Assembly (NCBI GenBank): GCA_002118135.1
Contig: BDIU01000399.1
Span: 62,204 to 126,203, forward strand
Source of the DNA: Trebouxia sp. TZW2008
Lineage: Eukaryota; Chlorophyta; Trebouxiophyceae; Trebouxiales; Trebouxiaceae
Direction of reading: 5' to 3'
DNA: 64,000 nt
Part shown: positions 7,585 through 55,952 of the stretch, piece by piece
Layout: each line of letters starts with the position of its first letter
Position numbering within the stretch: position 1 is the stretch's first letter
Translations under genes and position numbers: made by a program
Notes under the pieces: generated by a model
What the model was told of the DNA's origin: nothing
Databases searched by the model: none
Seen by the model: only the letters and a program-made list of their open reading frames with translations

Positions 7585-10500
7585 TTAAATGAGACCCTGC
7601 CGCCGCAAGTCCTCATATGTTTTGCGATTGTAAACATTGCCCTCTGCATCTTCATATTCTTCATCAACTTCTATTTTGTGACCTGGCTTTTCACGTTCCT
7701 GGAAAACCAGTCAATGCGACTTCAGGAGATCAGCAATCCAGCAGCTGCCCTGAGCTAAAGGCTTTTAGCTTGACGCAACATTATTTGTGAACACTTCCAC
7801 TCCACAAACTGTGCATAAGTTCAGCGCTGCACTGTGCCACCTTGATGCCACAGCTTGCAATTACAAGTGGACCGTCTTTCTAAAACAAACATCAAGCATG
7901 CGCAACTGCGCTGAGAGCAATCCAGAATGAAGGTGTGTGATTTGAATCTTGCGCACAACTGCTCACATTTCAGTACGCTTTTTTGCAAAGGCATGGCTTG
8001 CAACATACAGAAACTGCAGCCCAGTAGATAGCCTGGCTGTACCTGAATGTTTTTCCACAGCTTCTGAGCGTCCGCAACCTTGGTGATTTCATAGAAGTTC
8101 TTGGTGTTTGGGATGCCCAGCACACGCATGCTGGCTTGGTGGCGGTACTCTCTGAAGTGCCGCTCAAAGGCTCGCCTGCCCCAGTAGGTCACGCCGCCAC
8201 AAATCTCACACTGGAACTCCTGATTGAGGCCATGCAGCTTGTACAGCCAGTAGGGTATGGGCTTGCCATCCCAACCCAGCGGCAGCTTCAGAGGGTTGTA
8301 GATGAAGTCATCTTCTTCATCACTGTCACTAGCAGCAGCTTCCTATGTAAACACCAAACCAGCTCAGGCATGTACAGCCAGTATGGAACGTGTTTGCCAT
8401 CTAAATTTAGCGGCAGCTTCAGAGTGTCATAGATGAGGTCATCTTCTTCATCACTATCGCTAGCAGCAGCCTCCTGTGTAAACACCAGACTTGTCAAAGC
8501 ATGCTTGCAGTATGCTCAAGAGCCAGATAACTCATGCCATGTCATGGTGCTCTTCAGCGTGTCTCATGACAAGTTGAGAGGGTGGCGTATGAAGTCATCT
8601 TCTTCATTGCTGTCACCAGCAGCAGCCTCCTGTGCAAACACCAAATCAGCATAGGTCATGCTTGCAACATGGTCTGAGTCAGTCAGCTCATGTCATGCCG
8701 TGTTGGTCCTTGGCATGCCCTCTGAGATCTTGCATTGCTCTTCAGGTCCAGCAAGCTTACAGAGCTTGCCCTGAATTGTAGAGCATTTCAAGAAGCCCAA
8801 AAGGAAGATGCAGAAAGCTGATATGCATGTGTGGCTTGCCTTCAATGGTTCAAGATTGAGGTCAAAAGATGAAGCAGGACAAGTCTATGCCAATAGGCAT
8901 CATCGTGAGTGCCTGTGTGAGGATCGACAGTCAAAGTGCTCACAAGACAGCATGCTGTTGTATGACAGCAAAATCAGGTGAAGCAGAAGCATGTGCACCT
9001 CCTGATACTGATTTGCTGAGCACCTAGCATGCACCATGCTGTGTCATAGAACCTTATGAGATAGCGTGCGACTGACAATGATGATGATGATGATGACAAC
9101 GACTACCTCTTCAGCTTCCAGCTGTTCTGCCTGCAGCTCCTCATATGTGCGCGCTTGCTTCTTCTCAATGTTACCAACAGTGTCTGTGAGCACCTTGCCT
9201 AAGAGGTCCTTGTCCTGTAGCAGCAGGCGTATGCGGCTCTCCTGCAGGGCTGCCTCCTTAGCAGCAGCCTTTTGCTTGGCTGCCTGCTCGCTATCTCTAG
9301 CTGCCTGCAACGACCATGTGTGCATTGGCAGCTTGATCAAGCCTGACGCTTCCTGTGGCTGCAGTCATTACTCGTTCAAGCGGTGCTTGCATGCTTAGCT
9401 TGGGACTCTGTTGCATGTGTAAAGCATAGAGCAGTGAAGCGGCCGCGGTGATCAGCTTGAGATTTTCGGTTGCAAGCAGGTGTCTATGGCAAGACAAGGT
9501 GCCAGCTTGACCAACAAGAAGCACATATAAGTCAGATGTGTCATGAATGCTATGGGCACACTGCATGCCACTTAGCAGCATAAGTAGGTCAGTAGTTGGT
9601 GATAAGGCGGGAGGAAGCTGTACCACAGGGACAACTCCTTTTGCAAACAGCTTGCGGTCTAGCTTCTCCAGGGGTGTGTCCTTGGTGAGCATGAGCCTGT
9701 CAGCCCGCTGTCGCATGGTGCCCCCGCACTTCAGCCCCAGTTTGGCCAAAGCATCCTTCAGTGCATCAGCTCCTGCACATGAAGCCGACACATCTCAGCA
9801 TGAAGGAGAGACACACCAAGCCGAGACATGAAGCATAATTGGCATGAAGCATATTTGCATGAAGCATATTTGCATGAAGCATATTTGCATGAAGCATATT
9901 TGCATGAAGCGAAAACATGGAGCATATTTGCATGAAGCCGAGACATGAAGACGACACATCTGAGCATGAAGGAGAGAGATCTGTTGTTTGACTTGTGACA
10001 GTGTCTGAATCTCACCCCAGTGGGTGTCCAATGACAACAGACTGCTGTTGATCAATTGAGATGTGAGTCCCGGCTTGCATAGTGACCCATGCATACGCTG
10101 CAGGATGCTGTGGTCTCAGCTGTCTTTGTGAAACACAATCTGACAGATATCGTATACCAGACTGCAAGCCATCAGCACGGTCAAGACAGACTGACCTTTG
10201 CAAATGGCAAGCAGCATATCTAGGGAACAACAATGCCGCTACAGCGTAGCTGCCTACCAAGTGACTCCAGCTCGTCGACTGTGTCAAAGGCTTGCAGGTC
10301 AATGGTGTTGCCCTGGTCTCCAGGCAATTTGCCAACACCCCTGTCCTCCCAGCCTGGCACCTGACCCTCCTCAAAGGCTGAGTCAAAGTCCTCTTCCAGC
10401 TTGGTGTACACCTTGCTCAAGCTGCCCAGAGGGTTTGTGCGCTCGTAGAATTGCTCTAGATAGCCAAGCAAGGCTTGCAGGTAATCCCTGCACAGGAGGA

Positions 10501-12323
10501 AGCTGAATGTTTGGCACTGGTGATCGTCTCGCTGGATCTCAACTTAGCTGGGTGCACACAGGAAATCAGCATTCTGAGGCAGCATGTCAGATGTTACTGC
10601 AAACTGGCACAGATGAAGAATTGCCTGGCCTTGATGGCATGGGATGGCGAAATCGAAGTCTCAAGACCTAGTCCCACCCCAACTCCCAGCAGCTTAATGA
10701 CCTAGCAATAGGTGGCAAGACAAAGTCACAGAAAGTCAGGTGTCATAGGCTTGCAGAAATTTTGTGAAGGCATTGACATTACCTGTAACCTCTGCTTGTT
10801 CTGTGCTGGCGAGGGATCTGGGTAAACTCTGTGATGGAGGTCACATACTCCTGATACTCCTTAGGCGCCTCCTCTTTTGAGAACCCAAATTTGGAGTTGA
10901 TGAAAGTCTGGTAGTGCTCATGCAAGTCCAGAAAGCGGCCTTGGCCCTCCTCGCCACTGAAGTCAACTCGAGGCTCCTCTCTTACACCCAATTCATCATT
11001 CTCAGCCTGAATGACACCGAGAGAGCATCAAACAGCAAATGCTGCGCAATGATTGCCAAGACTAATTTAGGGCTCCTCTTCCTTCATCTAGTTCATCATT
11101 CTCAGTCTGAATGACAACAAGAGGATGAGACAGCAAGTTCAGCATGGTGATTGCCAAGGTCAACTTGAGGCTCTTCCCTCACACCCAGTTCATCATGTTC
11201 ACCCTGGATGGGACCAACCGGGTGAGACAGCAAATGCAGCATGGTGTTTGCCAAGATCAATTGAGGGCTCTTCCCTTACACCCAAATCATCATTTTCAGC
11301 CTGAATGACATCAAGAGAATTGGACAGCAAATGAAGCATAGTGATTGCCAACATTAATTCAGGGCTCATCTCTCAAACTCAATTCATCACTTTCAGCCTG
11401 GACAGCACCAAGCTGCAGACAGCCCATGCAGCATTGTGACTGCCAACAAAATACTTGCGTTATCCCCAGGGTATGAGATCAGATTTGCAGCACGGAGGCA
11501 AGGCTTGATTTGAATGTAAGGCTGCATGCATGGCTGCGGGCTGCAGCAGACAGCGTTAGATAGTATACAATGCATTGTGCTGCTACACTGTATGCAGTGC
11601 AGCTCTTGAAGCAGGTTAAACATTGAAAGGAAAGAGAAAGGAAAAGTTCACACCGTTAGGCGTTATAATGGGAGCCTCTTATACATGCAGCCCAGCATTG
11701 CTGCTCTCAAAGCAGCAACCAGCAGAAGGTTGAACTATGAGGGGTCAGACTGACTGACCTCTGTGACCTCAATTGGTCTGTTTCTGTAGAAGTCCTTGAG
11801 ATCACGGACTCTGTCATAAAAGACCTTGAAGTCTCCCTGTTCTACCTTCAGGCTTGCAATGTCATCTTTGCGTGAGCTGTCCTCATCCTTGTACACCTCT
11901 TCCTGCACATTTGAACAGATACATGTCTGTTGGTGACAACACAAGACTATCGACGTATTTGTTCAACTCTGGTTGCATGTAGTGTTTGCTTTCCTGCACG
12001 CTGCACATGTGCATGAATTTTGCATAGCATACCAGCTTTTTAGCTCTCTCTTGCATGATTTCCAGCATGATTCTGACACGATGGCTCTGCTGCAAACGCT
12101 CTTTATGACCTTTGAGGTCATTTCTGAAATCTTTCACAATAGCTCGTTCCAACTGCTCAGCTTCCTCATGATTCGCTGTGATCAGCGGGCAATCCATCAG
12201 TTTCAGCTAACAACTTGTTAGTGACAAGTGCCTCCAAGAGTGCCGCAAGAGTGCTCGACATGCGTTACAGATCAGCGACTGCAGTCACTTACAGCGAGTC
12301 TGCTCCAACACAGTGGTGGCCAT
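7585..12323 (-). CDS. SF3A3: Splicing factor 3A subunit 3 (SF3a60)
   Basis: U2 snRNP subunit needed for prespliceosome assembly in the nucleus. Nine exons in transcript order: 12293-12323, 12033-12175, 11759-11902, 10783-11006, 10258-10487, 9636-9772, 9107-9304, 8043-8342, 7585-7698. They total 1521 nt, exactly 506 codons plus stop, close to the usual 500 or so. The start is set by [15 protein letters not shown], which matches the family N-terminus across a phase-1 intron. Landmarks: [10 protein letters not shown] (exon 4); the SAP-like [11 protein letters not shown] and LFAKG (exon 6); [20 protein letters not shown] followed by the matrin-type zinc finger (Cys in CEICGG, His in [10 protein letters not shown]) and LGIPNTKNF (exon 8); and the conserved end [11 protein letters not shown]. 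Two introns carry tandem copies of neighbouring exon edges. Confidence 0.96.
8365..8640 (-). repeat. Two decayed tandem copies of SF3A3 exon 8 5' edge
   Basis: Exon 8 begins at 8342 with [12 protein letters not shown]. The same acceptor and exon start recur upstream in the transcript. Copy 2 (about 8365-8473) reads [20 protein letters not shown] and continues to PYWLYM, then runs into the next acceptor without a good donor. Copy 3 (about 8561-8637) reads [14 protein letters not shown] and then meets a stop. The genuine exon is the one continuing into the zinc finger. Confidence 0.85.
9838..9932 (+). repeat. 15 bp minisatellite in an SF3A3 intron
   Basis: About six head-to-tail copies of a 15 bp unit, GCATGAAGCATATTT, with decayed units on the 3' side to about 9990. 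It lies in the intron between exons 5 and 6 of SF3A3. Open frames across it are by-products of the repeat. Confidence 0.9.
11007..11420 (-). repeat. About 100 bp tandem array copying the acceptor edge of SF3A3 exon 4
   Basis: Exon 4 starts at 11006 (CATTCAG, then GCTGAGAATGATGAA). Four further diverged units follow in the intron at a spacing near 100 bp. Each repeats the acceptor, a CTGAGAATGATGAA-like exon start, and the TGTAAGGGAAGAGCC-like continuation. The copies meet stops or lose the frame, so they look like decoy acceptors rather than exons. Confidence 0.8.
11610..11710. repeat. Short dispersed repeat shared with 23360-23455
   Basis: A stretch containing CACACCGTTAGG, TTATAA, GGAGCCTCT and GCAGCCCAG in an SF3A3 intron has a diverged counterpart in a gyrA intron around 23360-23455, where an A/G-rich lead-in also precedes it. 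Limits are approximate and the class is unknown. Confidence 0.5.
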
Positions 12324-20011: not shown

Positions 20012-20778
20012 GCCAATTGCAAGGAGAGCAGCGGCGGGCTACCTTGCAAGCGCGGTGTTTATCATCATTTGCAGACCCAAATGTCTTGCGGCATGGAATG
20101 TTGTGAGTTTGTGTCACGTTCACCCGTGCAGCATGCATCAGGACAGGCTACCCGTCAAGCACTTGCGACCGATGCAAATGCGCAACAGGGCTTGAAGCGC
20201 TTTGCAATTCCGTGCGTGCAGAACCTCCAATAGGAGAGTGCTGTCCGGTATGTATCGAATCGATTGCAGGCATGACACATAGCCTTGACACTGCTCCTAG
20301 GGTATGCACGCCCTGTCTAATTTCTGAACATTTGTCTGAATCCAGCCCTGAGCCAGGTCAGCAAAACCCTCAGCAGGCATGGCAGCACGGCTTGTCGCGC
20401 TAGCTTTCCACCCTGCACCCGTGTCTTGACCGCCTGCTTCAGTGGCAGCAGGCATCCCTCGTAGTGTTTGCTTTGCTGTACTCAGACGCTCGGACGCATC
20501 GTGTTTTCCGATGTTTCAAGCGGCGTTATTGTTCGCCTGTGGCTGTTAGGTCAACGACATGCACAGATCAGACATGACCTTCGCCCAGGCCTGGAGGTGC
20601 GGGCTGCAAACTGCTGCCTGCCACGTCAAAGCGCGCATGCATTGCCAGCATCAGCTGCCGCACCCGCGGAGTCTGCCTAGTCAGGTCTGCAGGGCCTGAA
20701 TTGCTGCAAGTCTCGGCGCAGTGCTGCACGTCCAGTCAGGTCATAGCCTGATTGATAACCCTCTTCCAATGCTTGCAG
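20012..20778. promoter_or_regulatory. Presumed divergent promoter and gyrA 5' region
   Basis: Lies between the EF-hand start (minus) and the first solid gyrA exon (plus). A tentative gyrA first exon is at 20379-20420 (MAARLVALAFHPAP, then a GTGTCT donor); it would join the next exon in phase and looks like a transit-peptide start. No promoter motif was identified. Confidence 0.4.
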
Positions 20779-29543
<8,765 letters not shown>

Positions 29544-30469
29544 TCAGCAAGCGCCTGTACAGCCAAGCAAGCTAATTGCCATGGCCTGCGGACGCATACC
29601 ATGCAATCAAATGTTGATCTGCAACCCATAACAGAAAAGGGCTCAACTATTGACCACAGCGCTGCTGAAAAGGCTTGCAGCAGGCAGCTTGACACCATCA
29701 CAAGCTTGGGCTTCATGAATCATGCTCCGCTTCCACGCTTTGCAGCCGGCGTGTTTATAGCCATCATGGTTGCTGGTCCGCGGCAAAGTCTGCAGCCATG
29801 TACTGTGCTTTGTTAGTGAAACAGATGCAATACATGAGTCCAGGCCCTGTGGCAACCCAGACTGCTTGATTACAATTTTGACATTGCGTTTGCTGCCAAC
29901 ATTGACCTAAGTATGACGCATATTACTGAAATTCAATCAAACATGAGTTGGAAAGCTTGCGCAACATATGACTTGACATCTTGCAATATTGTACCAGCTT
30001 CGCTTTTCTGCTTTTGTACCCAATCTAGGATTTAGGACAATATACAGACGCATCTGGTCGCCAATGTTTTGATTACTTGCAGCCTGGTAAAAAGGCATGC
30101 TTCGTTTCCCATTAGTACGTGGCAAATGCTTCGCCAACAGGGAAGATTATCACAGCATCAATCTGCAAACGCACAGCATCAGAGCGGAGTCTGACAATTA
30201 CTGCATAGAATAGCATTCAGCGTGGCAATTAGGGGTGGTTCACCGCAAGCTAGCCAAGCCATGCCTGGCCAACAGCATTGGTCTGCTTCAGGGTTTGTTG
30301 ATGTCCCGAAAATCCTGCTCCAGGGTCGTGGTTGACATTACCAGGCCCCGAGTACAAGGAGATTGCAATTGTAGCTCAGTCCACGCTGCTGGCGATGACG
30401 CGCTGGATGCCCATCGCTGCAATGCCGGAAGCACGAGCAACTTGCTGAGGATACACTGCACGTTTGCTT
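29544..30469. other. Spacer upstream of Hel2-like copy A, partly duplicated
   Basis: About 900 bp between the gyrA stop and the next start. From about 29840 it is collinear with 36390-37006, sharing AGGCCCTGTGGCA, CATTGCGTTTG and the CGCTGGATG stretch before the start codon. It therefore belongs to the large tandem duplication and probably includes the copy A promoter. Confidence 0.6.
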
Positions 30470-35902: not shown

Positions 35903-37006
35903 GTATCAGCAACTCTAGTGCGGGCGCTCGTGCAGGTATTGTTATCACCGCCCTGAGCTGCCTTGCATATCGTGGTCGCATTGCACATCACCCCACATAT
36001 TGCTGCTGTGATGACTGGAATGACAGCTCTCTTGATCGATGTTGCATCCTTGCTGTTGTCATGTGATCAGGCAATTTAGCTCCCTTGCAACGCCCATGGC
36101 TGCTGATACAATGCATCAAATTAGCCCGTCCACCATCACCGACTCCCAAGCTGCAGCCCTGACAGTGCACCAATCCATATGCCTTGTGATGCTTGTGGGT
36201 GGAGGCGTTGAGAGATATGTGTGTTTTGCAGGGGCTCAAAGAGACAGAGATACACCATGGCGTCATCATGTTGACATACCTGAGTTGGTTGAAAAGTCCT
36301 ATTGCTGTGTTGTGAGCTCACCTGTAAAGCTTTGATGGGGATGGCGTTGAATCAATCACCATGCTTGCATTGCTTCACTTGTGTGAAGGAATGTGTTTTC
36401 AGGCCCTGTGGCATCCCAAAATGCTTGTTGACAATTTCATCATTGCGTTTGTTGCAAACATTGATCTAAGAATGCGTTTGATGATGCATATTACATTCAT
36501 TACAATTCATGGCTTCAAATCAATTACATCCCGAGTTGTACAGCTTGTGCATTGTATGAGTTGACACTTTGCGTGACTGCATCAGCCACGGGTTTCTGCT
36601 TTTGTTGCCACGCTAAAGTTCAGGACGATGTACAGACGCACCTGGTGGTCAATGTGTTAGATTACTTGCAGGCTGGCCAGCTGGTCATGAGGCATGCTCC
36701 ATCATATCCCATCGAGCATGACATTGTGGCAAATGCTTCTTATCAACAGGCCGCCGCATCTGAAGCACAGCATATCATCGGGCAACTACTGAATAGCGTG
36801 GCATCCAGCGTGGCAACAGAATGTGCTGTACAGCAAGTGTGGCCAACAGCCTTGGTCTGCTCCAGGGTTTGATAGGTCAGTGTTGCAAATCAAGCTCGTG
36901 CACAATGGGAAGTCAGCATAGTAACTGTGTCCACGCGCTGGATGAGCATCCCTGCAATGCCGGACAAACAAGTATAGACTACTGAAACTACATTACACCT
37001 TTGCCT
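35903..37006. other. Spacer between the two Hel2-like copies
   Basis: The first 430 bp match the region after copy B (about 40410-40790) and the last 620 bp match the region before copy A, so the duplication junction lies near 36330-36390. No independent gene is seen. The open frame at 36552-36872 has no recognisable content. Confidence 0.6.
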
Positions 37007-40000
37007 ATGACGAAAACGAGCGGCGATCAAATAGACCGCCGGCTCGTTGAGGAGATCACGTCTGATCACGAGACCTCATCAGACGCTGAAGAGTCTGAGA
37101 TAGCTACAGATGCTGAAGAATCTGAGACGTCAACAAGTGCTGAAGAATGGGAGGCTTTATCAGATGCTGAAGAAGGCGTTTCCTCGGATGCTGACGAAGC
37201 CGAGACGTCATCAGATGCTGAAGAGTCTGAGACTTTAACAGAGGCTGAAGATTCATGCGCTGAAGAATCTGAAACTTCATCAGATGCTGATCAGTCTGAT
37301 TCTTCGACAGATGCTGATGTTGCCGAATGTTTATGGCATGCTCAAGAGTCCGGGAGCCTGTGCCTTCTCTGTTGCGAGCCAATCAAGGTATTTTTATGTT
37401 GTACTTGCCAACATGCTGCTTGATCGATGTGTTGATACTTGCTGGCTGTGCAGGTGCTTGCCATTGGCAGGTGCAGCCATCAAGACATCTGTGCAGAGTG
37501 TATGGTGCACATGTTCTTGCTTTACAAGGACTTCCACTGCCCTCTTTGTAAAACGCGGCTCAACAAGGTAGCGGCAGAACGCTCTCCTGCCTGTACAGAA
37601 TGGTGTCACAGTTGTTGACTACAATAGGTTGCTTGTAGCAGGCATGTGCTCAATATTGCTTCTAGCTTCTGCAATTGATTGAAACAATATGACACACATC
37701 ACAGGGCATTGTCTGTTGCAAGGTCTGTCTGCTAGTCGTACATGTAGCCGTACGTCTGACACACATGAAGCCATACCTTGACTGATCATGCGTCGCTTCT
37801 CGCACTTTGGCATTGTACAGCTGATTTCTGCGATTGTATATATGCAGGTGGTCATTACGCCTCGGCGTGAAAAGCTTACTGTCAACTGGTCGCAAATGGT
37901 TGATGGCTCCACTAAGCTGTGGTTCAGTTCAAAATGGTGCCCCAAGCTTTGCTTCACAGACGACTACTATCCTTGGGGCATGCAGCCCTTGCATATATAC
38001 TTCAGACAGCTGACAGCCAGAGCTTGCAGCATTTGTGATGCGCAAGCACAGTGGCGCTTTGACAACAATGCCGCTCTGGTAGACCATATGATGACAGAGC
38101 ACAGTCGCTGCCTTTGCCTCATATGTCTGGCCACCCCTAACACTGCACACAACCAGACAACATGGCCATGCTATCCTCTCTTTCATCGCTGGCATGACGA
38201 AGCGAAAGCGCAAGTTTGTGACACTCAACACTGGCATGCAGCTGAAAGTTTTCTGCTGCTGCTTACGTTACAAGTGTTAGTGCCCCTAAGTTTGCTCAAA
38301 TCTTTTACAGAGCCAGTGCATTCTTTGCGCAGCATCATTTGCGTTTGTTTCACTATGGCATAGACTGCCTTAACTTGATGGATATATAGTCATTGGCACT
38401 GTACGGCACATGTGATCAGCCTGGTTGGCTGGCTAAAGCATCTGAAAGGACTCGTTCTCATTCACCTGGTATTGCACAATGCCAGGATCTTGCCCGCAGC
38501 ATATGGTCTTGACACTTCTGATTTATCCCTTGTTTCTGCAGGACGCTCTTCCTTTCCCCTCAGGCTGCCAACTTACACGGCTGAGAGTCTCAGTCACCAC
38601 CTAGATGCACAGCACCAAACCTGCCAAATATGCAAGGTTGCCTTCTTTGACATTGACTGCTGGTTTCAGCATGTCAGGGTTCAGCATCCCTTCTGCCGAG
38701 GATGTAGCGCTGTCTTCAGAACTGAAGAGGAGCTAGCTCAGCACCACAGGTATGGCAGAACACTCACCTTTTTGCATCAGCAATTTTCTGTGATGGGATG
38801 CTGAGTTACTCATGGGAATTTTGCATTGTTTACCCGGTCAATGCTGGCACAGCTCTCGCACATGATGTGTAGTCTTGGTTCTGGAATAGATACACCTCTT
38901 TGTGCCAAATGCATTTTGTTCTCTCGCACCTTTTTGTGCAAGTTGCATGTACTGCTGAAGGATCCATGGCGTAATGGAGCAAACAGTTGCACGCCTGAAG
39001 TCCTGCATCATGAGCTTGTGTAAACAATCTTAAACAATATGGCTTTCTGATCATAAGTTATGCATTGTGTGCAGTTTGCAGCAGACCTCACAAGAACAGC
39101 CAAACACCACAGCACAGGCATCAAGCGCAGTCAACCGAGCAGCAGCAGCTGTGAGAACCAATCAAGCTGAAATTGTGAGGGTGGGGCCTAATGAAGACTC
39201 TGTTCAAGCAGCCAGAGGAGCTGAAAGACAATCAGCCTCTGCAGATAGCACTGCACATGCAGCAGATGCTAGCTCACCAGCAGGCCATGCAGACACAACA
39301 GCTGACAGACAGGAATTGTCTGCAAACAGCACTGTACAGCCAACTAACTTGCCAGATGCTAGTTCATCAGCAGCCACAGCAGCTGACCGACAGAGCTTGT
39401 CAGTCGCTGTTACACCGGCAGCGCACACAGTCATAATAGCTGACAGACAGGGATCTTCTGCAAATAGCACTACGCAGGCAGCAGTTGTGGCACCAGCTGC
39501 TACTACACTGGCAGCACAAGCAAGCAGAACAGATGACAGACAGCAAGCTGTTGGGAGCACTGATGCAGAGGCAGCCCTGGCTGTGCTTGAACTGGTACGA
39601 CCTGCACCTGCCAGAGCCCCCACCACTAGCATTGTGGCAGGTTCTGAACTCAACACACTCAGCCAGACTGCTGGTGACTTTACAGCTTCTGGCATTGCTC
39701 CTGCCTCTCAGCACGCCATAGCTCAGACTGGCAGCCAAGCAGACTGTGATTTCTTGCGCTTGCTTCAGATGAACATCAGGTTGTTAGCAGAGGCAAAGGC
39801 ATCAACATTTCCGTAGAGAATCGCAGAACCTTGTGGAGTATATCTCATCATTTGAGATGTTCTCTTCTGTTTAGATCATATTGAAGTATATTCTTTATTG
39901 AATCGAATGAAATATAGCCGTGTCGCCAATGAGATGCTATTGCGTCGTTTATCAATGGAGAGGGCTGTCACAGATGTCTGTAGAAACATGATGCCCACAC

Positions 40001-44423: not shown

Positions 44424-44524
44424 ATTCAAGACAATTCAGTGACAATGAATGCGTGCCTGCACAGTGCGTGCTCGATCGGGTCGCGCTGCGCTTCTCGTTG
44501 CACCACAAGGTTCGCAGGTTCATC
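44424..44524. promoter_or_regulatory. Short divergent promoter region
   Basis: About 100 bp separate the proposed starts of the minus-strand plastid protein and the plus-strand coiled-coil gene. Control elements probably overlap both 5' regions. No motif was identified; the plus-strand start may shift this interval. Confidence 0.35.
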
Positions 44525-47500
44525 ATGCATGTGTCCGGGCGTTTTGCAGCGTTACAGCGTAACGCAAGAAGTGTTGAGCCAGGGCTTCAGCTCGACAGGC
44601 TCGCGGTAGCGTGAGGACCCTGAGCAGGACCTGCAGCACGGCCAGACAGCCCATAGACCGCGTCGGAATCCAGTCGCCTAGCCATGGCCATTGAGGGCGA
44701 CTAACAGTACCTTTGCAACTTTGGCAGCATCGCAAGTACGTGCGGATGCTGCCGATAGAGGACAGCATATGCCTGGCGGAGCTCGCTGCAGGCACCAACT
44801 CATGGTCAGTAGCATCTCTTCGGGGCGTGCGTCATCGATTTTACCGAAGTCTGCGTGTTTGCCCTAATAGGCTACGTTAAGCTGGTTCGGCTGTCACTAC
44901 CATCTTCAGGCTGCAGCGTTTAACTGACTCACGACAAGTTGTTGCCTAACCAGGTACAACGTGACCGACTCAGTCCGCGATGCCTTGGAGACCCTCGTCA
45001 AACATGCTTCAAGTCAGAACAGACGCATCAGGTGAGACTCGCTGAGGAATACTGTATGATGCCATTGCCACTTGCCATTTGCTGATGACATGACAGCTGC
45101 ACAGCCAAATGTGTTTTGAGGGAGCACTGTGCACAGGCATTTGGAGGAGGCACTTGCCAGAAGCGAGTCTGGTACAGCTCGAAGCCATGACAAGCTGGAG
45201 GGCAAGATTGAGCAAGTGCAAGAGGAGGTTCAGTCTGCCAGGGCCTGTGCGGTGCGCACCACATCTCAGCACAGCACCAAGCACTTTGAAATTTGCACCT
45301 GACCTTCAGTCTCAAGCAACTTTGTCAGCATTGATTCATCGCTCCAGATTACCTGGAGAAAGCGCTAGACTGTTGCTGTGAAAGCACCATATGCATTGGC
45401 TGCAGTAAACTTGGCTGCATTAATCTTGGCTGCATTGTAAATTTTACCCTATGCAGCTGCAGTGCAAGTAACACAAGCTGTTGACGCAGCCAACGCACAC
45501 GGTGCTTTCACTGAAGGCCATCACAGACATCTGTGTTGCCTGTTTGTTCACAGCTCTCGCTCCATCTCATTGCGGGTGAATGCTACCTGCCAGAGTGATG
45601 ACTTATGATAGAGGGTGCAGCAGTCAGAGCTAATCACGTTTGGCATGAGCGTCGATGTCTAGATTGCCTGGCTGTTAGCTAGCACTGTTGTGTTATGTTG
45701 CAGATAGATGACACCTTTCAGAATGATGACCTGACGCACAGGTTGCAGCACCACCCCTGCAGACAGTCTGCAGCATCACAGATCTTGTGTTGCCCGAGTG
45801 CTCTGAGCTACCCTTGCATCTTGCTGCAGGTGGGGGCCACCATTCAGAGTGGCGACTTGAGGCACAGGGTGCAGCAATTAGAGCTAACCACATGTGGCAT
45901 GACCGTCTATGTTGCCTGGCTGTTAGCAAGTATTGTTGTGTTATGTTGCAGGTAGACGCTACCATTCAGAGTGATGACCTGAGGCACAAGGCACAGCATT
46001 TGGAGCTGACCACATGTGATGTGGCATGATTACCTGCCATGCATGTTTGCCCACAGCTACCCCTGCATGTTATCACAGCTGGCCACCAATCAGAGTGATG
46101 ACTTGAGACGCAAGGTGCAGCATCAGGCATTCATGTGTTATGACTGTTCAGTAACAGCTATATTGTGACTTGTTGCAGGTAGACGCCACCATTCAGAGTG
46201 ATGACTTGAGGCATAGGGTGCAGCATCTTGAGCTGACCACATGTGGCATGACCATGGATCTGGCTCGTGCCCCCAGTCCAGGGTCTCTTTCCAGCGAGGG
46301 CAGCCGCCACCGCCACTGGGGCCATGCCAGACCACCTTCTGGCCCTGCTGTGCTTGAGCGGCTCGACCAGATGGACAAGAGCCTGGAAAGCGTCAGTTGG
46401 GTGGCAAACAAAGCCAAGGTAATTACATTGCCTAACGCTATGACTTGTCTTCTCAGGCAAGATCAATATGATGCTGATTTTGCTGTCCTGATTTTGTTTT
46501 GAAGCTGGGAAATGTTCATGACAGCTGTACTGTAATGGCTGCAGTGAAGAGAGAGCGTGCATGCATTCAGACTGGCACATGCGTTCTGGCTGCTGGCTGC
46601 TCATCCTGAACCTGAGTTTGCTGAGTGTCAGGCATTGCAATATTGTGGGAGGACAAGGTTCATTCTGTTGGTCAGAGTCAAGACACGCTCCATGTTACAT
46701 GTCCCAGTACAGGCATACTGCTATCTGAAACGACTCATCACCAAGACTGTGAATTGTGCAGGAAGACTTTGAGGCCACCAACACAACTGTGTATGAGGTG
46801 GAGAAGCGCATGGAGGAGCGCTTGACTGAGGTCAGGACAGATCTGAGCCTTGCCACAGCAGAATGCCGGCAGGGAGCCCTGAGTGAGGCGCTGCGTAACA
46901 ACAAGGTGCAGCTGGACAGCTTGCAGGACCGCCTCACCCTGCGCATCCAAGGTAGACTGCACTTCCATATGTTCACAAGCCTGTGTCTCACATAAAGCTG
47001 TGGATTGCATCTGCATGGCTTTGCACAGCGTTGAATGCACAGAGCTCTGAGTGGGGCGCTACAAAAAAGCAAAGTGCAGCTGGACAGCCTGCAGGACCGC
47101 CTTAACCTGCGCATACAAGGTACCTTTGCACTCCTTCATGCTCGCAACGTATGTAAGCTCTGTCTGATGCAAGCTGTGTACTAAACTTGCCTGGCTTTGC
47201 ATAGCGCTGAATGTTGTTAGGGGCCTTGAGCAAGGCACAGCGTAGCAACAAGGTGCAGCTGGACAGCCTGCAAGAGCGCCTCACCCTGCGCATACCAGGT
47301 ACCCTGCAACCCTTCACGCTCACAATGCAGGCATGCTTCGTCACATAGAAAGCCGCGAATTGCACTTGCACCATGCAGCTCAATAGGAAGCGCGCTCGAA
47401 GGCAAGCCGTACAATGCTGATGTGCAAATAGCAATCTGCATGGTGCTCTTTCAAGGTTGGAGCAGCAGCACAGTGACCTGGCCTCGGCAGCTGAGCAGAG

Positions 47501-50500
47501 CGAGGCCAGGGTGAGTCAGCTGGAGGTGTCAGCCGCCCAGCTTCTCGATTTTTAGCTTTTCACAGTACAACCTTAAAAGTGCAGAAGGAGCCAGCATTGC
47601 CCAACAACCACCAAGACATTGATGTAACCAGGACATGATTGTGCGCTGTAGGAGTGGAACAGCAGCAACACAATGAGCTGGCATCAGCAGCTGAGCAGAG
47701 TGAGGCCAGGGTGAGTGAGGTGGAGGCTGAGCTGGGTGCTAAAGTGAGGGCTGTGAGTCAGTTGCTGGACCACACGGCTAAGGCAGGCAGCCAGGTCATG
47801 GCTCACGTGGCTCAGCTGGAGGAACAAACCAAGGCAGACCTCGCAGGTCAGACCCTTTTCCTCCTCACCTGCCATTGCTGCATGCAGGCTATGACTGCAT
47901 ACTCATGTGAATGTACCCTGTGTCCTGTAACTCTACACTCATGTGAACAAGCTAAGTTGGGTATTGCCCGTGTGGCTCAGCTGGAGGAACGCTTGAAGGC
48001 AGACCTTGCTGGTCAGACACCTATTTGATGCATGCTCAAAGACGTTCTTTGCCTTCCACTGTCACTGGTGTTCAAGGCTGGCGCGCCACAATTTGGAGCT
48101 TCATGGGATGGAACAAAGAAGTGCTGCAGGTGTACTATGCTTGTGCACTCATGTGGATGTGCCAAGATTGACATTGCCGGTCAGGGTCCATCCTCATTGC
48201 TTTATGCACACCATACCTGTACATTCTAGTGCATGTGTCAAAGCTGGCATTAAGGTCACAGTCCATGTGACTCAGCTAGTAAAGCACACAGGACGCAGAC
48301 CTTGTTGGTCAATCCCTGTTTGTCTTGCTGACAACGTGTCAATACTGCCTGCATCAAATCAAACAGCAAGATCAGAGCATGCTCTCTGCAGTCCAAGCAG
48401 AAATGATGATTGTCACGATCAGAGCGATGCCAGGCCACATACTTGCAGCGCAACAGTAGTGGGCATGCTGGCACAGTATAGCATCTGAACAAGCGCAGCA
48501 GCTGTTCAGAAGTTGCCGTCATACACAGCCACGCCAACAGACAATGTATGTCATGCAGCAGCTGAGCACAAGATGCATGAGCTGTACACTTTCATACCAC
48601 CCATGGACACACAGACGATCAGTAGCATGTGGCGTCTGAGTATGAAGTGTGTGCAGGGTTGGATGAGGCAGTGGAGAAACTGACGGAGCAGAAGGTGGAT
48701 GCTGGCGGCATGGAGAGCTACACCCACCAGATCAGCAAGGTGTGCCTGCATGTTTCTTGCTAGCCCAGTTGGTTTTTGCCGTAATGCTTGTTGACTCTAC
48801 AAACATTCCTATCATGATTTCCAAATCAGACTGGCCTGGTAACACAGCTAGCACTTGTGCCAGCATGTGTAGCATTGCCATTATCATGTTGATGACCCCC
48901 CTGCAGACTTCCATTGCCTTGCAGAAGATTTCTAAGCTAGACAGAAGAGATGCTGAGCAATGCATGCTGTGCTGTGCAGCTGTTTGAGCAGAGTGGGCAA
49001 GGGATCAGGAAAGAGGACATGCAGCATGCTGATGAGCTAGGAAGACAATCTTTTCTGTTGCCAGAGCAAGACAAAAGATTTTGTGATCACTGTATGCTTT
49101 GATGAGGAGTTCTAGGAAGCGGATAATAACGTACACCTCACTAGCTCCAATGATATTCCATAAAAAGCATTCCTTTTCATGTTGCAGCTGTTTGAGCAGA
49201 GTGCGCGAGGGGTGAGAAAGGAGGCCATGCACCATGCAGATGAGCTGCATAGGGCCCTAGGGCAGCGCCTGGAGGCAGGGCTAGGGCAGAAAGCTGATGC
49301 AGCCCTAGTGGGGCGGGAAGGGCAATCTGCCAGGAAGCAGCTTAGTGATCTTTGGGCTGAGGCGGAAGCTGCCAGGGAAGGGCTGGACCATGTGAAGGGC
49401 AGTTTGCAGCACACCGAGGGGCAGGTGAAGGGCCTGCAGGACAAGCTTGCCCTAACCAAGGTCAGCTCATAAGCCTTGATTATGAGTTTGTAAAGTTGAG
49501 TCAGCGTCCATTCTGCAAATGCCAGGATTGTGTTGAACGCCAAAAGCGACTTGCAGTATTGACATTATGCCCCAGGTCCCAGGCTGTTTCAGGCAGCGAA
49601 GGCTGCTTGTACGCTGTAAGAACAATCGATGTAAGGACAATCTCAACGCAGAGACAATGCCATTGGTAACCACTGACTGCATTCTGACTGCCATGGTCCC
49701 TCTGAGTAAGCATAATTTGATGTAAGACATTATTCCTGGTAATCAATGCAGTTGTCACATTGAGAGATTACTGTATCATGCCTCAAGGCAGAAACTCTGC
49801 TTACTCATATTTTGTCTGTACATTTACGCTGCTGCCGCTGACGAGGATCTTGTCCTTTGTACCTTTCATGCTTACCTTCTGTCTGTGCATTCAAGATGCA
49901 TGATGTTTTTGCATTGAAGATAAATTTATTCTGTGCACTCAAGACCAGCTGGTAGAGAACCTCACCTTTTCTGTTTGGATTCTCAGGACAAGGTGAAGGA
50001 GGTGCAGAATGAGGTGGGCCTGGCTGATGCCGCTGCTGCTGCCACCACTGCTGCTTTGGAGGCCGAGTCAATTAGGTCAGCCATCCCTGCTTCAAGCATC
50101 TCCGCTTGATGTGTGATCCGCATCCTGTATGGTCTTGGTACAACCTTGGGCCAGCCCACATGCACCTTTGCCCTGCACATTATGATGTACAGTTTCTCAT
50201 TTGTATCCTGCTGTCAACATACATGTCTTGCACAGCATATAATGCATTCAGTTCTCAAGTGTGTTGAGCTGTTAGTGTACCTAAGTGTTTCTTCACTGCT
50301 GAGGGTACACCTTCACGCAAAATTGTATGGATGTGCAGGGGCCGCGAGGTGGAGCAGAGAGTACAACACCTGGCAGGGGCAATTGCCATCATCAAGGAGA
50401 CTCTGTATGGCCCTTCTAGCAGCCCTGACCGCCCTGTCTCTTCTTCGCCTTCTTCCCGCTCCCGCTCTGCCTCCCCTGCCCCAGGAAGGGCTGATGGGGG

Positions 50501-53500
50501 AGCCCTGCTGGCTAGCCATGGTAAGCATGGAATGCCCTATGCTGTATCACGGTACATTGTGCATGCAATGTCATGGCCATGCAGTAATATTACTGTAATT
50601 CTCAGAGCTGATCATGTGCAGAAGAGAGGGGTAATCAGTTAGCACATGGTAGTGATGTTTCACCCGCGGCTCTTGCCTTAGCTTGCTAGGTGTGTGTCTG
50701 ACTGATACAAGACTTTGCAATGAATTCGTACAATCGTGGACACTGCAGCTTTTCAAAGCTGCACCATCATCGCTCAAGTGCCTGAAAAAGACACCGCCAG
50801 TGGCTGAGTATCCTTGATGTCCGTGCGACCCAGTTCTCAGCCCGTCACAGCATACCATACCAGGCAATTCACCAACGCTGCAGTCATACAGCCGATTTCT
50901 GACAAGATGTGGGCCATATGCAGGTGCATTGACAGGGCGTCTGGCGGCAGTCGTGGAGCAAGTGGAGGGGCTGCAGACCACCTTGCAGGGCAAAGCCGAT
51001 CAAGCAGCCTTGCAGGAGACAAAGCAGCAGGTGCAGGAGGGCAGGCAGCAGGGGCAGGCCACCAGCACTGCCCTGGCCCAGCTTGAGGGCAGTTTGAGGC
51101 AGCAGGGGCAGGAGCAGGCTGCGGCCCTGCACCGCCTAGAAGCCCTGCACGCCAAATCATCCCAGGGTGAGCATGGCCCTACATGCCTGATGAAAATGGA
51201 ATCTGGGTGCAGGGGCACCACAGTTCTTGTCGTGATCAAGACTGGATCTACAGGGAAATGGCCTGCTGCAAGCCGTTTGGCATAGGGATGGCTGAGCTGC
51301 AGGAGGGTCATTTGGGGTGGCTAGGCCAAGAGCAGATAACAGGCCTTCACTGCATGAAAGGCAGCTTGTCATATGACGTCAGCGTAGCATTGATCCATGT
51401 GGAACATGTGTAACACAGATCATGTCTGGAGCCAATTAGCCTAACCCCAAGCAGGATCATCATAATTTGCTGAAATTGCCTGGGCGTCTTAAGCTCTTGC
51501 CGCAAGACAATGGGGCAAAGCTCCCTGTTGTGCTGGGTTCAACCTGCTATTCCGCATTAAGTTTTGGCAGATGACCGTAGTGACGCATGCAATTGTGTTT
51601 CATGCACAAGCTGCAGCAGCACCTGCAGCAGCAGCAGCTTAGCCCTTGAGGAAGCCTTCTGTTGCATTTGGTCAGCACAACAGCATCTCAACACTCCTCA
51701 TCTGCTTGCCCACCATCAGCAAATCATCAGGTGAGCTTGCTGACTAAGAATTTGACACAGCTTTTCCAGCTGCACAGCCATGAGCAACGGAAAGTTGATT
51801 TAAAGCTGTGAATGCCTCAGAAACCTCTGGCAGATTCCATGCAGGGGTGCAACAGCAACGCATGACGTCAACAGTCCACCAACAATCTCAACTGTGACTG
51901 TTACTTACTGCTGGAATGCAGAGCGCGCAACCACAAGTGAGGTGAAGCGTTGGGTAGGTGAGGCCATTGAGGAGGGCAGGGGGCATGTCAAGGAGAGGGT
52001 GGGGCTGTTGACCTCAGCCCTGCAGCAGCTGACTGATGCTGTGGAGCAGGACAGGTCCCAGGCTGCTGAGGTGGCTGGTGACTACACCCCCAAGCAACTC
52101 CAGGTCAGCACTATGCCACACAGCTACAATAGTTGCATCAGCTGTTGGTGTATTCTTGCCTTATTGAGTTGCTGCCTCCATTGCATGCTGATGTCTCACG
52201 GATCTTGCAGGTTGCTCAGGTGGCGGGTGACTATAATCCCAAGCAGCTCCTGGTCAACACCATGGTATCGCGTCACAGTGGCGTATTGCATCAGCTGTCA
52301 CGTGTCATTGACATGATTGCTCCACTGCTGCTTCTCCCACGCGCATTGGTGTGGTGAGGTTCATCTGCAGGCAGTCTTGTGCTTCAGCGCTGTATGAAGT
52401 GGGGTTTTCTGCTGGTTTTCCACTGTTTCTGCAGAGCTGATGCCTGACACAATGACATGGGGTACAGGGAGCGCGCTGCTCGTGCAGTAGGGATGATGTT
52501 GATGACAGTTCACTTGTGACAACTCCTGTTGCAACAAGGCTCAGGACCAGGGCTGGAGCGGCAGTGCTAATGCTAATGCAGTTCTGATAAACGCACGCAT
52601 CACAGGATCTATCAATGCAGGACCTGTTGGCACAAGGGCCCGCGAGCCTGCTGCTGGTGTAGTGATGATGATCTGATGACAACAACAGGGGGAGATGCCA
52701 CCTTTCTGCAGCCGACACTGCTGGCTGATGCAGCAGGACATTGCTGCAATGTGCATGCTAATGTTGATGATGGCGGCAAGGCAACGCTGATAAAGCTGTA
52801 TGGTCACTAAGGCAAATCTGACAAGACTTGTTGGTCAACAATGCTGGTGGCATTGCAGGACATGGTGGCAAGGGGGACAGAGAGCCTGCTGGTGGTGCAG
52901 CGCCAGGTGGCATCAGTGCAGGCTAACGCTGAGGAGCAGCTAACCCGCACTGCAGCTGGGCTGAGAAGCAGCCTGCAGGAGCTGCACAACAGTCACCACC
53001 GTCACCGCGACCTCCTTCAGGTGTGCCTTTATCTCTGGTATCATCCTAAGCCTTGTTGTGACTGCTTTGCACGATTACAGAATGCCAGAAGGTGCTGGGC
53101 TGAGGGCCAGCCTGCAGCTGCACAACAGCCACCACCGCCATAGGGACTTTCTCCAGGTATGCCTGTTCTTGCATTAACAGATGTCTCACTGTAGCAAGGT
53201 GCATTATGCAATGCCCCGCGACATTGGCACAATGTTGTGCAAGCATGACACGTTCATCAGCTGCTGCTTTGGAAGCTTTCCACAAGCCCTGTGCCACACC
53301 TCTTTCTTCCTTCATGCCCATGTTTGCCCCTTTCCTGCTGCCTGAGGAGCCAACATCTGCATGTTGCTGTCAGGTTGATACAATTGGTTGTGTTCATACA
53401 GTGGTACGTGTTGATACAATGGCATGTGTTGATATACCTTTCAAATGGGCTGATAGGATGCAGCATGCTGATACAATGACATGTGTTGATATAGGTCTGA

Positions 53501-55952
53501 GTCAGGCCGATACAACCATGTGTATTGATACGATGGGATGAGTCGACACATTGGCGTGTGTTTCTGCAGGCAACAGAGGAGCAGGTGGCACGGCTTGGGT
53601 TGGATGTGGGGGGACGGGTGACACCCGACCAGGCACGCGCTCTGGTAATTAGGGAGCTCAGGGGACGCGACCAGGCGGACTCTGACAAGTGGCAGGTCAG
53701 TCTCCTTGCTGTTGCTTCCTTCTACTTGTTGAGGGTCCCTTCCCTTCCCTTCCCTTCCCTTCCCTTCCCTTCCCTTCCCTTCCCTTCCCTTCCCTTGTGC
53801 AGCACTCCACTCATCCATATCAAGCCGTATGTGTGTACATCACCTGTATATATCACTTTCAAAAGCTTGAACTCATCTTGACGAGTAGCTTTCATACCAT
53901 CATACCAAATCAAGCTTCAGGTGCATTGGCGTGTGACTGAGGTGGCTCAAACAAAGCTGCCACTGAAAGTATTCCAATGTGTGCAGTGCCTGGTGCAGCA
54001 CTTCACCAATGCTTTTGAGGAGACCAAGAGGGAGCTGGAGGGCACGAGGAGTGACATGGACACTACTCACAAGAGGTGTAATAGTTTCTGACCAAGTCAA
54101 TTCAAACAAAGCTGCTGCTCATGCTGTAGCACTGTGTGTGTGCAGAGTCTGGTGCAGCGCTTCACCAGCGCTTTTGAGGAGACCGAGAGAGAGCTGGAGG
54201 GCATGAGCAGTGAAACAGACACCAGCTTCCAGGGATGAATCTATTGTGCTTGAGCAATGCTGCCACCAATGCTGTAGCGCTCAGTGCAGACCCTCCAAAG
54301 GGACCAAGAGAGAGCTGAAGGGCATGAGCAGTGACATAAGTGCCAGCTTCCTAGCGATGATCCTGTTGTACTTGAGCAGTGCTGCCATCATTGTTGTAGC
54401 ACTGGGTGTGTATACAGGGCCTGGTGCAGCGCTTCACCAGTGCGTTTGAGGAGACCAAGAGGGAGCTGGAGGGCATGAGCAGTGACATGGACGCCAATTT
54501 GAGCCTGCAGCTGGCCAGCAAGCTCAACACAGAGGACCTGCCTCAGAAGCTGCAGGAGGCCAGCTTAGTCAGCCGAGCTAGCCTGCAGGCCCAGGTCAAG
54601 CAGGTCAGTTACCAAAAAGCACCATTCTTCAAACCTTTCAACACAAAGCTATGTCTAGAGTGCTCATGGTTCAGTTGCACTTTTGCTTTTACAAAGCACA
54701 GAGACCCGCAGCATTGCACCTGCATTGTAGGCAAGGCCAGAAAATGGTGCATAGGCCATGATGTTGAACCTTTGTACATAGTGTGTGATTTGCCAAGGAA
54801 CACGACAGTATCCAAAAGTTCTGATTATGAAAAAAATCAAACATGCCGAGGATCATGAGCAAATTGTTGGCTTGCACATGTCCAATGACATGTCAGCACA
54901 CTGCGCTGAACACAAAAGAACGTCACGTCATGATATAGTATTTGAACCATTGATGGCTTGTGGCAGGTTGCAACATGCGCATGTTCCGGCATACATGATC
55001 AGCTCACAGCCCATGCACAGCACCTGGTCATTTGCATCAGCAAGTTTGACTGGTGGCATGATCTTAGAGGCAGCCAAGGCAATGCTGAATGTCACAGTCT
55101 CACGGTATTTGGCTGAGTGCATTGAGACATAGGCATTGCATGGTGTGGATTGTTCATCATCTCACATGCTATAATTGTAAGGTGTTGACTGTTGAACATC
55201 TTACGTGGTGTGGTGGTGCACATTCAGCCTGCATGATACAGGTGGAGGCATCCTGTGAGAGGCTGTGCCAGGCTCTGGGCGGGGAGGTGCACCGCTTGGC
55301 GCTGCAGGTGCAGGTCCTGGAGCAGTCCGACACCCTTGCCATTGAGGCTGCAGAGGTGCGCCCTGCCTTGTCAAGCAGATGCTTGCACAATTGCACATGC
55401 AAGGGCAGTAGACCTTGAATGCATTGTCAAGCTTCCATGAAGTTTCGCGTATTGTGAGCCTGCTGTACACATCTTGCATGTCTCAAGCCTCGTCGCTTTG
55501 AGGCAATCGATCAGCGCGAAGCATTGAGGCTGAAGCAGTGCACCAATAGTATGCACCAGCAATGATGCTCATTTTCTGTACATTGTCAGCCTTATTGTGT
55601 ACACATTTTGCTGTACACTCTCTGCTGAAAAGTTTGCCATCTGCAGGATTTGAATCACCTCAGAAAGGCAATCAGCAAGAAGGTAGACAGGGAGACCGTT
55701 GAGATGGATCTGGAACGTATTCACAAGGCTTTGCGCTGCAAGGCGAATGTGCATGCCATGTCAGAGGCATTGTCACAGAAGCTGGACATTCATGCCTTTC
55801 TGACAGCTAATGCCTCTGTCCAGAAGATCCCTGCTTATGACCCTTCTGAGCAAAAAGATCACGAGCCCAAGACTGATCTTTCTGCTGTCAAGGATATCAA
55901 GGCACCGTTGAGTAGCAGACCCAGCTTGGCAAGGCAAGGCTGGAAGAACTAG
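44525..55952 (+). CDS. Large coiled-coil protein, function unknown
   Basis: Exons: 44525-44605 (tentative), 44728-44804, 44954-45031, 45137-45251, 46179-46418, 46762-46951, 47652-47846, 48657-48739, 49188-49460, 49987-50075, 50339-50520, 50924-51166, 51922-52103, 52859-53020, 53570-53695, 54418-54603, 55242-55355, 55647-55952. All phases agree, giving about 973 aa. After a short globular start (KYVRMLPIEDSICLAELAAG) the protein is almost entirely heptad-like and rich in Gln, Glu, Leu and Ala, for example KLEGKIEQVQEEVQSA and LDSLQDRLTLRIQ. Two Ser/Pro-rich linkers occur, near SPGSLSSEGS and in exon 11 (SSSPSSRSRSASPAP). The C-terminus has MSEALSQKLDIHAFLTANA. This is a cytoskeletal or ciliary-type architecture, but I recognise no orthologue. 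Introns are long and full of copied exon edges. Confidence 0.75.
45690..46178 (+). repeat. Four extra copies of the acceptor edge of coiled-coil exon 5
   Basis: The true exon starts at 46179 (VDATIQSDDLRHRVQHLEL). Diverged copies after TGCAG-like acceptors or their remnants start near 45705, 45831, 45954 and 46080, spaced about 125 bp. Each keeps CATTCAGAGTGATGAC-like and CATGTGGCATGAC-like stretches to varying degree. Confidence 0.85.
46878..47310 (+). repeat. Copies of the donor edge of coiled-coil exon 6
   Basis: Exon 6 ends at 46951 with LDSLQDRLTLRIQ and a GTAGAC donor. The same exon end plus donor recurs near 47045-47122 and 47220-47300 (AGCTGGACAGCCTGCA, then CGCATACAAGGTACC and CGCATACCAGGTACC). 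Here the donor side, not the acceptor side, was copied. Confidence 0.85.
47455..48310 (+). repeat. Copies of parts of coiled-coil exon 7
   Basis: The 5' part of exon 7 (EQQQHNELASAAEQSEAR at 47652) has an upstream copy at about 47458-47540. Its 3' part (HVAQLEEQTKADLAG and donor) has downstream copies near 47960-48020 and, more decayed, 48262-48315. Copies therefore flank the true exon on both sides. Confidence 0.8.
48985..49055 (+). repeat. Copy of the acceptor edge of coiled-coil exon 9
   Basis: CTGTTTGAGCAGAGTG and following sequence match the start of the true exon at 49188 (LFEQSARGVRKEAMHHADEL). The copy then diverges and loses the frame. Confidence 0.75.
49600..49772 (-). mobile_element. 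Inverted-repeat element (MITE-like), copy 1, in an intron
   Basis: About 172 bp in the intron between coiled-coil exons 9 and 10. It aligns along its length with the reverse complement of the element at 63166-63337, sharing CCATTGGTAACCA, TTCTGACTGC and TGGTCCCTCTGAGT. Its termini are worn, so the inverted repeats are no longer obvious. Confidence 0.7.
52205..52260 (+). repeat. Copy of the donor edge of coiled-coil exon 13
   Basis: The exon 13 end (AEVAGDYTPKQLQ then GTCAGC, at 52103) recurs at about 52212-52255, reading AQVAGDYNPKQLLV before diverging. Confidence 0.75.
53080..53165 (+). repeat. Copy of the donor edge of coiled-coil exon 14
   Basis: The exon 14 end (LQELHNSHHRHRDLLQ plus donor at 53020) recurs at about 53095-53160 with GCACAACAGCCACCACCG and a GTATGC donor. 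Confidence 0.8.
53737..53796 (+). repeat. (CCCTT)12 microsatellite
   Basis: Twelve perfect CCCTT units in the intron after coiled-coil exon 15. It does not match the plant-type telomere repeat, so it is a simple repeat and not a telomere remnant. Confidence 0.95.
53987..54417 (+). repeat. Three extra copies of coiled-coil exon 16 start
   Basis: The true exon is 54418-54603 (GLVQRFTSAFEETKRELEG). Copies start at 53987 (CLVQHFTNAFEETKRELEG), 54146 (SLVQRFTSAFEETEREL) and about 54280 (decayed). The first two keep an acceptor and the correct phase, but lack a donor that would restore the frame. Confidence 0.85.

Follow-up and report, generated by a model that had tools for sequence, protein, structure and literature searches.

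About one in four of the introns that we sampled in the genome of the lichen alga Trebouxia sp. TZW2008 carries decaying copies of the edge of an adjoining exon, with the splice site included. These copies are probably made by recurrent small tandem duplications of DNA which cross splice junctions and are tolerated via splicing. They had been noted in a preliminary description of one stretch of 64,000 nucleotides (assembly GCA_002118135.1, contig BDIU01000399.1, positions 62,204 to 126,203 of the forward strand), here called the window, and all positions given without a contig label refer to this stretch.

Gene models were obtained by spliced protein-to-DNA alignment of Trebouxia orthologues onto the window with a purpose-written aligner. 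The SF3A3 gene occupies 7588-12323 of the minus strand with 8 introns and 9 exons, which the spliced alignment placed at 12323-12293, 12175-12033, 11902-11759, 11006-10783, 10487-10258, 9772-9624, 9304-9107, 8342-8043 and 7698-7588; 452 of 507 aligned residues were identical to those of P0001 from Trebouxia sp. C0006, and the database comparison gave 86% identity of the SF3A3 protein of the stretch to a Trebouxia sp. C0006 protein. The gyrA gene, encoding a plastid-type DNA gyrase A, lies at 20559-29540 of the plus strand with 17 exons and 16 introns (aligned to P0122 of Trebouxia sp. C0009, with 693 identities over 931 aligned residues). Its alignment was repeated at a higher intron cost, which removed a zero-length exon, and its product was 76% identical to a Trebouxia sp. 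C0009 protein and 75% identical to another record in the database comparison. The coiled-coil gene (44746-55953, plus strand, 17 exons) was modelled from spliced alignment together with the open frame, and its ends are the least certain, as the 5' end differs between the two references and the 3' end is that of the open frame; its protein had two relatives among the matches found, in Trebouxia C0004 and C0010. Judging by these identities, the alga is probably a different species from the reference strains. SF3A3 and gyrA are close together in the window (7588-29540), and the gene model Astpho2 (P0136), presumably from Asterochloris, has the Pfam domains of both; this neighbourhood may be conserved. 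A profile search also located exons of a TTL-domain (TTLL) gene on the minus strand at about 32-193 and 1479-1646, outside the region for which copies had been described, and this is probably the gene that had been called TTLL3.

Local direct repeats are visible in the window by self-alignment. The scan for copies consisted of a self-alignment of each exon-intron-exon unit with a cut-off of at least 40 bits; each intron is set only against the two exons that flank it, so that a duplicate of a whole exon with both its introns would escape it. The preliminary description had claimed at least ten cases in SF3A3, gyrA and the coiled-coil gene, at both kinds of splice site, and the scan bore this out: 12 exon edges in 11 of the 40 introns of these genes, 8 acceptor edges and 4 donor edges, are copied into the adjoining intron, and a 13th, the acceptor of coiled-coil intron 5, was scored separately because the first 9 or so exon bases are not part of its alignment.

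In what follows, the range given with each intron is that spanned by the exon edge and its copies. In SF3A3 (minus strand), the acceptor edge of exon 4 (11006) has four upstream copies in intron 3 (10962-11448) with a period of about 97 bp, the intron part being repeated too, and the acceptor edge of exon 8 (8342) has two decayed copies in intron 7 (8237-8708) at distances of 131 and about 287 bp. In gyrA (plus strand), the acceptor edge of exon 12 (25695) is accompanied by two upstream copies with a period of about 69 bp in intron 11 (25532-25737), and the acceptor edge of intron 14 (28162; region 28000-28243) by one upstream copy of 85 bp at 87%, whose clear homology ends at the splice site. 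The remaining cases lie in the coiled-coil gene (plus strand). Acceptor edges are copied upstream in intron 3 (45570-46259; edge 46179, four copies with an outer spacing of about 122-128 bp and a partial copy at 46082-46124), in intron 5 (47461-47726; edge 47652, with 47461-47526 matching 47661-47726 from about 9 bases within the exon), in intron 7 (48975-49246; edge 49188, copy 48975-49038), in intron 12 (52613-52900; edge 52859, a weak copy of 78% at 52613-52662) and in intron 14 (53978-54496; edge 54418, three copies). Donor edges are copied downstream in intron 5 (46858-47325; edge 46951, two copies at about 168 and 347 bp), intron 6 (47807-48018; edge 47846, copy 47972-48018), intron 12 (52059-52264; edge 52103, copy 52208-52264) and intron 13 (52955-53164; edge 53020, copy 53094-53164). 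The largest arrays, those of SF3A3 intron 3 and coiled-coil intron 3, have five copies including the intact one, the latter with a sixth, partial copy, which agrees with the two to six copies per array first described, and in the window genes the decayed copies stand next to one intact exon copy, again as described. Coiled-coil intron 14 also contains a perfect TCCCT pentamer array of about 12 units (53736-53796).

To see how far this extends beyond the window, exons of chaperonins, HSP70, kinesins and cullins were located by profile search in the genome (68.5 Mb in 527 contigs), giving a sample of 44 loci from four conserved families, which perhaps do not represent all genes. An intron was called when a scored GT/GC-AG pair linked two consecutive profile matches in frame; 140 introns from 41 genes passed, while 36 of 176 gaps were dropped for a score of 8 or less or a length mismatch of more than 3 residues. 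Exon-edge copies were found in 33 of the 140 introns and 17 of the 41 genes, making 40 edges (24 acceptor and 16 donor), so that the recurrence of direct local duplication in many genes, proposed from the window, is seen elsewhere in the genome too. The affected introns were 7 of 34 in chaperonins, 8 of 36 in HSP70, 6 of 19 in cullins and 12 of 51 in kinesins. All six affected cullin introns belong to one of the three cullin genes (L032 on contig C68, 6 of its 7 introns), and over the sample the copies were clustered by gene, with 17 genes affected in comparison to 22.5 expected (P = 0.004), a clustering which we count against tandem duplication. When exon edges were compared with introns swapped in from other genes, none of 540 trials gave a match; together with the 33 of 140 introns in an independent sample, this shows that edge copies exceed chance, and the control counts in favour of tandem duplication. 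Duplicate coverage of a like kind appeared in the profile search itself, as three stacked matches over HSP70 positions 132-167 at C150:63970-64534, and also at C78:73988-74363 and C324:26843-27105, loci outside the 44-locus sample.

The copies are direct, local and partial. All 40 edges of the sample are direct local duplicates holding a real splice junction, and no inverted one occurred in 180 exon-intron-exon units, where the 11 inverted pairs detected never linked an exon edge with an intron; this also counts for tandem duplication. The longest exon part per edge ranged from 13 to 119 bp with a median of 68 bp over the 52 edges of window and sample, and was 35 to 119 bp in 48 of these 52, the preliminary description having given about 40 to 100 bp. 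None of the 86 junction pairs extended to the far end of the exon, and in every junction pair the repeat distance was less than the length of the containing intron, the largest ratio being 0.96. Copies from the exon interior without contact to a junction were seen in 5 of the 140 sample introns and 3 of the 40 window introns, most of them near a junction within an array, and the scan of the 140-intron sample gave no exon-exon or other mixed-type pairs. Tandem duplications of a like size, 75 to 210 bp, are present inside introns as well. The distance to the nearest copy was 73 to 262 bp with a median of 166 bp for 46 sample events, 6 intron-internal ones included. This is near the scale of nucleosomes and Okazaki fragments, and a duplication unit of such a size is only a lead, on which the literature matches listed held nothing to the point. 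The median length was 608 bp for introns with copies in comparison to 329 bp for those without, longer introns also offering more room. Collapsing the detectable repeats reduced 62.2 kb of intron to 50.9 kb, and a detectable share of intron length seemingly comes from such duplications.

We propose that small tandem DNA duplications of about 70 to 260 bp (median 166) would recur in the genes of this alga. A duplication across a splice junction would give two copies of the splice site and the exon edge, and if the outer donor or outer acceptor were used in splicing, the normal mRNA would be restored and the inner copy skipped, which would make the change nearly neutral and the intron longer by one unit. 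The outer exon copy would stay under coding selection, the inner copy would decay, and arrays would form when existing copies were amplified by ordinary tandem duplication or unequal exchange. On this proposal we infer that splicing skips the copies and that duplications are placed at random along the gene, and any excess at junctions would be survivorship, owing to the protected copy together with slower loss, or exchange-driven refreshing, of exon-derived sequence. The small number of exon-interior copies (5 introns) and the absence of exon-exon pairs in the sample would be expected if a copy must adjoin a junction.

With random placement, the ratio of junction to intron-internal opportunity was 0.86 for the present intron lengths and 1.17 for the collapsed lengths. 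With simulated detection, it was 0.94 to 1.03 and 1.28 to 1.40, respectively, in comparison to 1.69 in a second simulation, the overall expectation being 0.9 to 1.7 junction events to 1 internal event. The ratio observed in the sample was 6.7, from 40 junction edges and 6 independent intron-internal events, the latter counted by hand with copies of copies removed. This excess is significant (P = 2e-6 against 1.17 and 3e-4 against 1.69) and counts against tandem duplication. In the surplus copies, clear alignment is confined to the exon part and the splice consensus. For duplications with the intron part also repeated, the counts were 9 at junctions (7 by the nearest-copy test, L021 by the flank test and L013 by an earlier intron-part test) and 6 internal, matching random placement and counting in favour of tandem duplication. 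When exon-derived copies were taken to decay about three times slower than intron DNA, the excess lost its significance (P = 0.07). The 40:6 excess was not accepted as direct proof of a junction-specific process, since the surplus lies in copies without a recognizable intron part. The preliminary description had seen a process acting specifically at junctions, and had held that junction-spanning duplications no commoner than intron-internal ones would speak against it. The raw excess favours junctions when all detectable duplications in the 140 introns are counted, but among the well-preserved ones junctions were no more frequent than random placement gives, and a junction-specific process is thus not required.

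The fate of the intron part does not fit the simple account well. A single tandem duplication decaying by a uniform clock predicts that 92% of detected cases have a recognizable intron part (81% to 89% in the second simulation, and still 81% with a higher indel rate), whereas clear intron homology was found in 12 of 46 nearest copies (26%) in a test which left out copies more than 300 bp distant or with spacers shorter than 35 bp. A flank test gave a homologous intron part in 8 of 45 cases in comparison to 41.5 expected. Uniform-clock tandem duplication was therefore rejected as a complete account, and this shortfall is among the evidence counted against tandem duplication. Slower decay of exon-derived copies in the model brought the predicted intron parts to 39% to 56% and the junction to internal ratio to 2.8 to 3.4, in comparison to the observed 26% and 6.7. 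A first intron-part test, which had scored 30 of 52 as homologous, suffered from a weak shuffle control and from some copy edges misplaced after indels, and it was superseded except for L013, whose exon part is too short for the later tests. Nevertheless, copies without clear intron homology retained a small but significant residue of intron similarity, which exceeded the level for further introns of their own gene by 0.73 +- 0.17 z (n = 33, a test resting on dozens of copies rather than hundreds). This indicates that at least some of them are old tandem duplications.

In the better-preserved cases the copies form tandem units. The spacers between copies resemble each other (mean z 4.98, n = 47), the flank outside the outermost copy much less so (mean z 1.23, n = 51), and in 14 of 19 arrays the inner similarity is the greater. 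Repeated inner spacers are seen in the sampled loci L028, L039, L047, L012 and L021, in gyrA intron 11 and in SF3A3 intron 3, which counts for tandem duplication. The outer flank scores as repeated in SF3A3 introns 3 and 7, coiled-coil intron 5 and L013; in L021 such a repeat is apparent by eye, without support by score. In L028, L039 and L047, the best-preserved arrays, homology stops within about 4 to 8 bases of the outermost splice site, and this ending is counted against tandem duplication: 40 exon bases of the outermost copy are 90% to 97% identical, while the outer flank is unrelated by score. In L047, the outermost copy matches the exon at 97% over its last 40 exon bases, and unrelated sequence follows after GTAC.

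Three readings of the lost intron part remain: old duplications that were refreshed, deletions at microhomologies ending at splice motifs, and copying anchored at the splice site. We favour old duplications in which unequal exchange with the conserved exon would have renewed the exon parts, the outer intron drifting meanwhile, because exon-edge copies are never inverted in the units scanned and seldom come from exon interiors. Anchored copying would paste a splice motif with up to about 119 bp of exon directly into the adjacent intron, roughly 70 to 260 bp off, with tandem amplification later, for example through short-range template switching at TGCAG or CAGGT microhomology or through a splicing-coupled process. 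In favour of such copying are the junction excess of 40:6, the lack of clear intron homology in 34 of 46 nearest copies, the homology of the outermost copy stopping at the splice site in the three best-preserved arrays, and the unrelated sequence after GTAC in L047. Template switching, by the criterion we adopted, should also have produced inverted copies, and there were none in the 180 units; the motifs are expected inside exons too, but exon-interior copies were few; and both the residual similarity of intron parts and the repeats that continue past the outermost copy in the four introns or loci named above (and by eye in L021) speak for duplicated intron. We regard anchored copying as unlikely. 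It is kept alive by two features, the longer survival of exon-derived copies in comparison to adjacent intron DNA and the ends of some arrays at splice sites. The corresponding general claim, that Trebouxia has a junction-directed form of duplication in which the splice site is the fixed end of short direct exon copies pasted into the adjacent intron and then amplified, is likewise doubtful; if it is true, introns would extend outward from exons and be stocked with decoy splice sites and ready-made pieces of exon.

Another reading is that the inner copies are functional alternative exon edges under selection, serving as alternative acceptors or donors or as poison sites that trigger decay. At the sequence level, the supply of decoy splice sites claimed in the preliminary description is supported: splice dinucleotides are retained at 49 of 58 copied edges, with AG in 31 of 36 acceptor copies and GT or GC in 18 of 22 donor copies, and this retention is what functional edges would show. 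Of the 43 indels in 57 inner copies, however, 36 are frame-breaking (exon parts under 25 to 30 bp were excluded from the indel and flank tests). The ratio of nonsynonymous to synonymous changes was 372:241 in 58 inner copies, summed over four groups, a count over dozens of copies rather than hundreds and about what neutral decay of the inner copy with synonymous change in the exon gives; the pattern fits with or without gene conversion of inner copies by the exon. Stops numbered 9 in comparison to 15.8 under the neutral expectation, and the 14 youngest copies, chosen for high identity and lack of intron homology, had 58 synonymous and 36 nonsynonymous changes; this subset looks more constrained and speaks against a purely neutral account. 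Both observations favour functional edges and count against simple tandem duplication. A coding function of the inner copies, at which a third-position bias had hinted, was weakened by the codon-level count and set aside. The copies are partial exons, and one copy per exon suffices for the Trebouxia orthologues of the window genes. Selected alternative edges are quite improbable; the inner copies look mostly like non-coding debris beside a single working exon copy, in keeping with the earlier statement that selection maintains one copy.

Two further explanations concern the origin of the repeats as such. A short mobile or introner-like element that had entered at an exon border and duplicated a long target site would give the order edge, element, edge, and the arrays do read as edge, spacer, edge, the spacer in several of them bearing no relation to the outer intron. 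When 16 spacers were searched against the 68.5 Mb genome, all matched their own loci alone except for one low-complexity spacer, although this search is weak for short spacers, one of 21 bases having missed itself and those under about 45 bases being hardly testable. A captured foreign spacer or introner was accordingly rejected, no dispersed relatives of the 16 spacers having been found within the limits of the search. Spacer length is variable, 40 to 196 bp in one set with shorter ones down to 25 in the flank test, and target-site duplications of the length required would be unusual. Element insertion is very improbable. An assembly artefact or strain mixture might be suspected because pairs with a conserved exon part and a diverged intron part look like two haplotypes. 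The exon parts of the copies differ from the exon by 5% to 27%, the spacing is regular in some arrays, a quarter of the introns sampled hold copies, and a related Trebouxia is reported as haploid in the available part of its genome paper (PMC12712428), all of which makes an artefact extremely improbable.

The nearest published case that we found, as far as the accessible text of the report goes, is a potato RdRp gene in which a tandem duplication across an intron-exon boundary created a new intron (Ma, Lan, Niu 2016, PMC4974935). As described there, the duplicated segment ran from the 3' part of an intron into the 5' part of the following exon and took the acceptor, the polypyrimidine tract and the branch site along. 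The potato event is a single case in one gene, with a new intron and an inserted exon piece (PMC4974935), whereas the Trebouxia copies lie within existing introns, involve 40 edges in 33 of 140 introns and donors as well as acceptors, and often form decayed arrays; what is shared, judging from the same text, is the DNA event, not the outcome, the frequency or the junction types. An adjoining intron segment in the duplicated unit, as in potato, is clear in 12 of 46 nearest copies, leaves a weak residue elsewhere and, beyond the outermost copy, is missing from the three best-preserved arrays but present in some others. In the model of Rogers (1989), as cited in PMC4974935, an intron is gained by tandem duplication of an exon segment containing AGGT, and for Drosophila PMC2891723 attributes introns to exon segments that carried a proto-splice site and were duplicated in tandem. 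The likeness is a tandem duplication within a gene which is tolerated by splicing out one copy. In the Rogers model, as summarized in PMC4974935, it is the duplicated exon segment that becomes the new intron, with the length of the unit, while the Trebouxia copy contains a real splice junction and the distances of all junction pairs are below the intron length. Introners (PMC9860276) also change intron content genome-wide, but they are dispersed similar copies, in contrast to the local copies of Trebouxia with 16 tested spacers that look unique save the low-complexity one. For Trebouxia itself, a check of the available text for the term "intron" gave one occurrence in one genome paper (PMC12712428) and none in another (PMC11523091). 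Among the open-access literature matches listed, none described introns in which copies of exon edges are frequent. Tandem exon duplication and mutually exclusive exons likewise place exon-derived copies locally in introns. Here, within the reach of the unit-wise scan, exon edges alone are copied, with no complete exon in 86 pairs and frame-breaking in most indels.

The origin of intron DNA is often attributed to transposons or introners. In this alga, a plain mutational route, namely small duplications hidden by splicing, seems to have left its trace in a quarter of the conserved-gene introns sampled. The exon copy is protected and provides a standard against which the decay of the copies beside it can be read, so that ordinary genes should allow one to measure how often such duplications arise, what sizes they have and what becomes of them, and a steady supply of decoy splice sites is predicted for this lichen alga.

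Larger repeats are also present between gyrA and the coiled-coil gene. A direct duplicate with long open frames was observed at 29841-31773 and 36400-38322, its copies about 6.6 kb apart and 72% identical, and between these copies lie tandem-repeat stretches (32505-35633) with units of about 42 to 234 bp.
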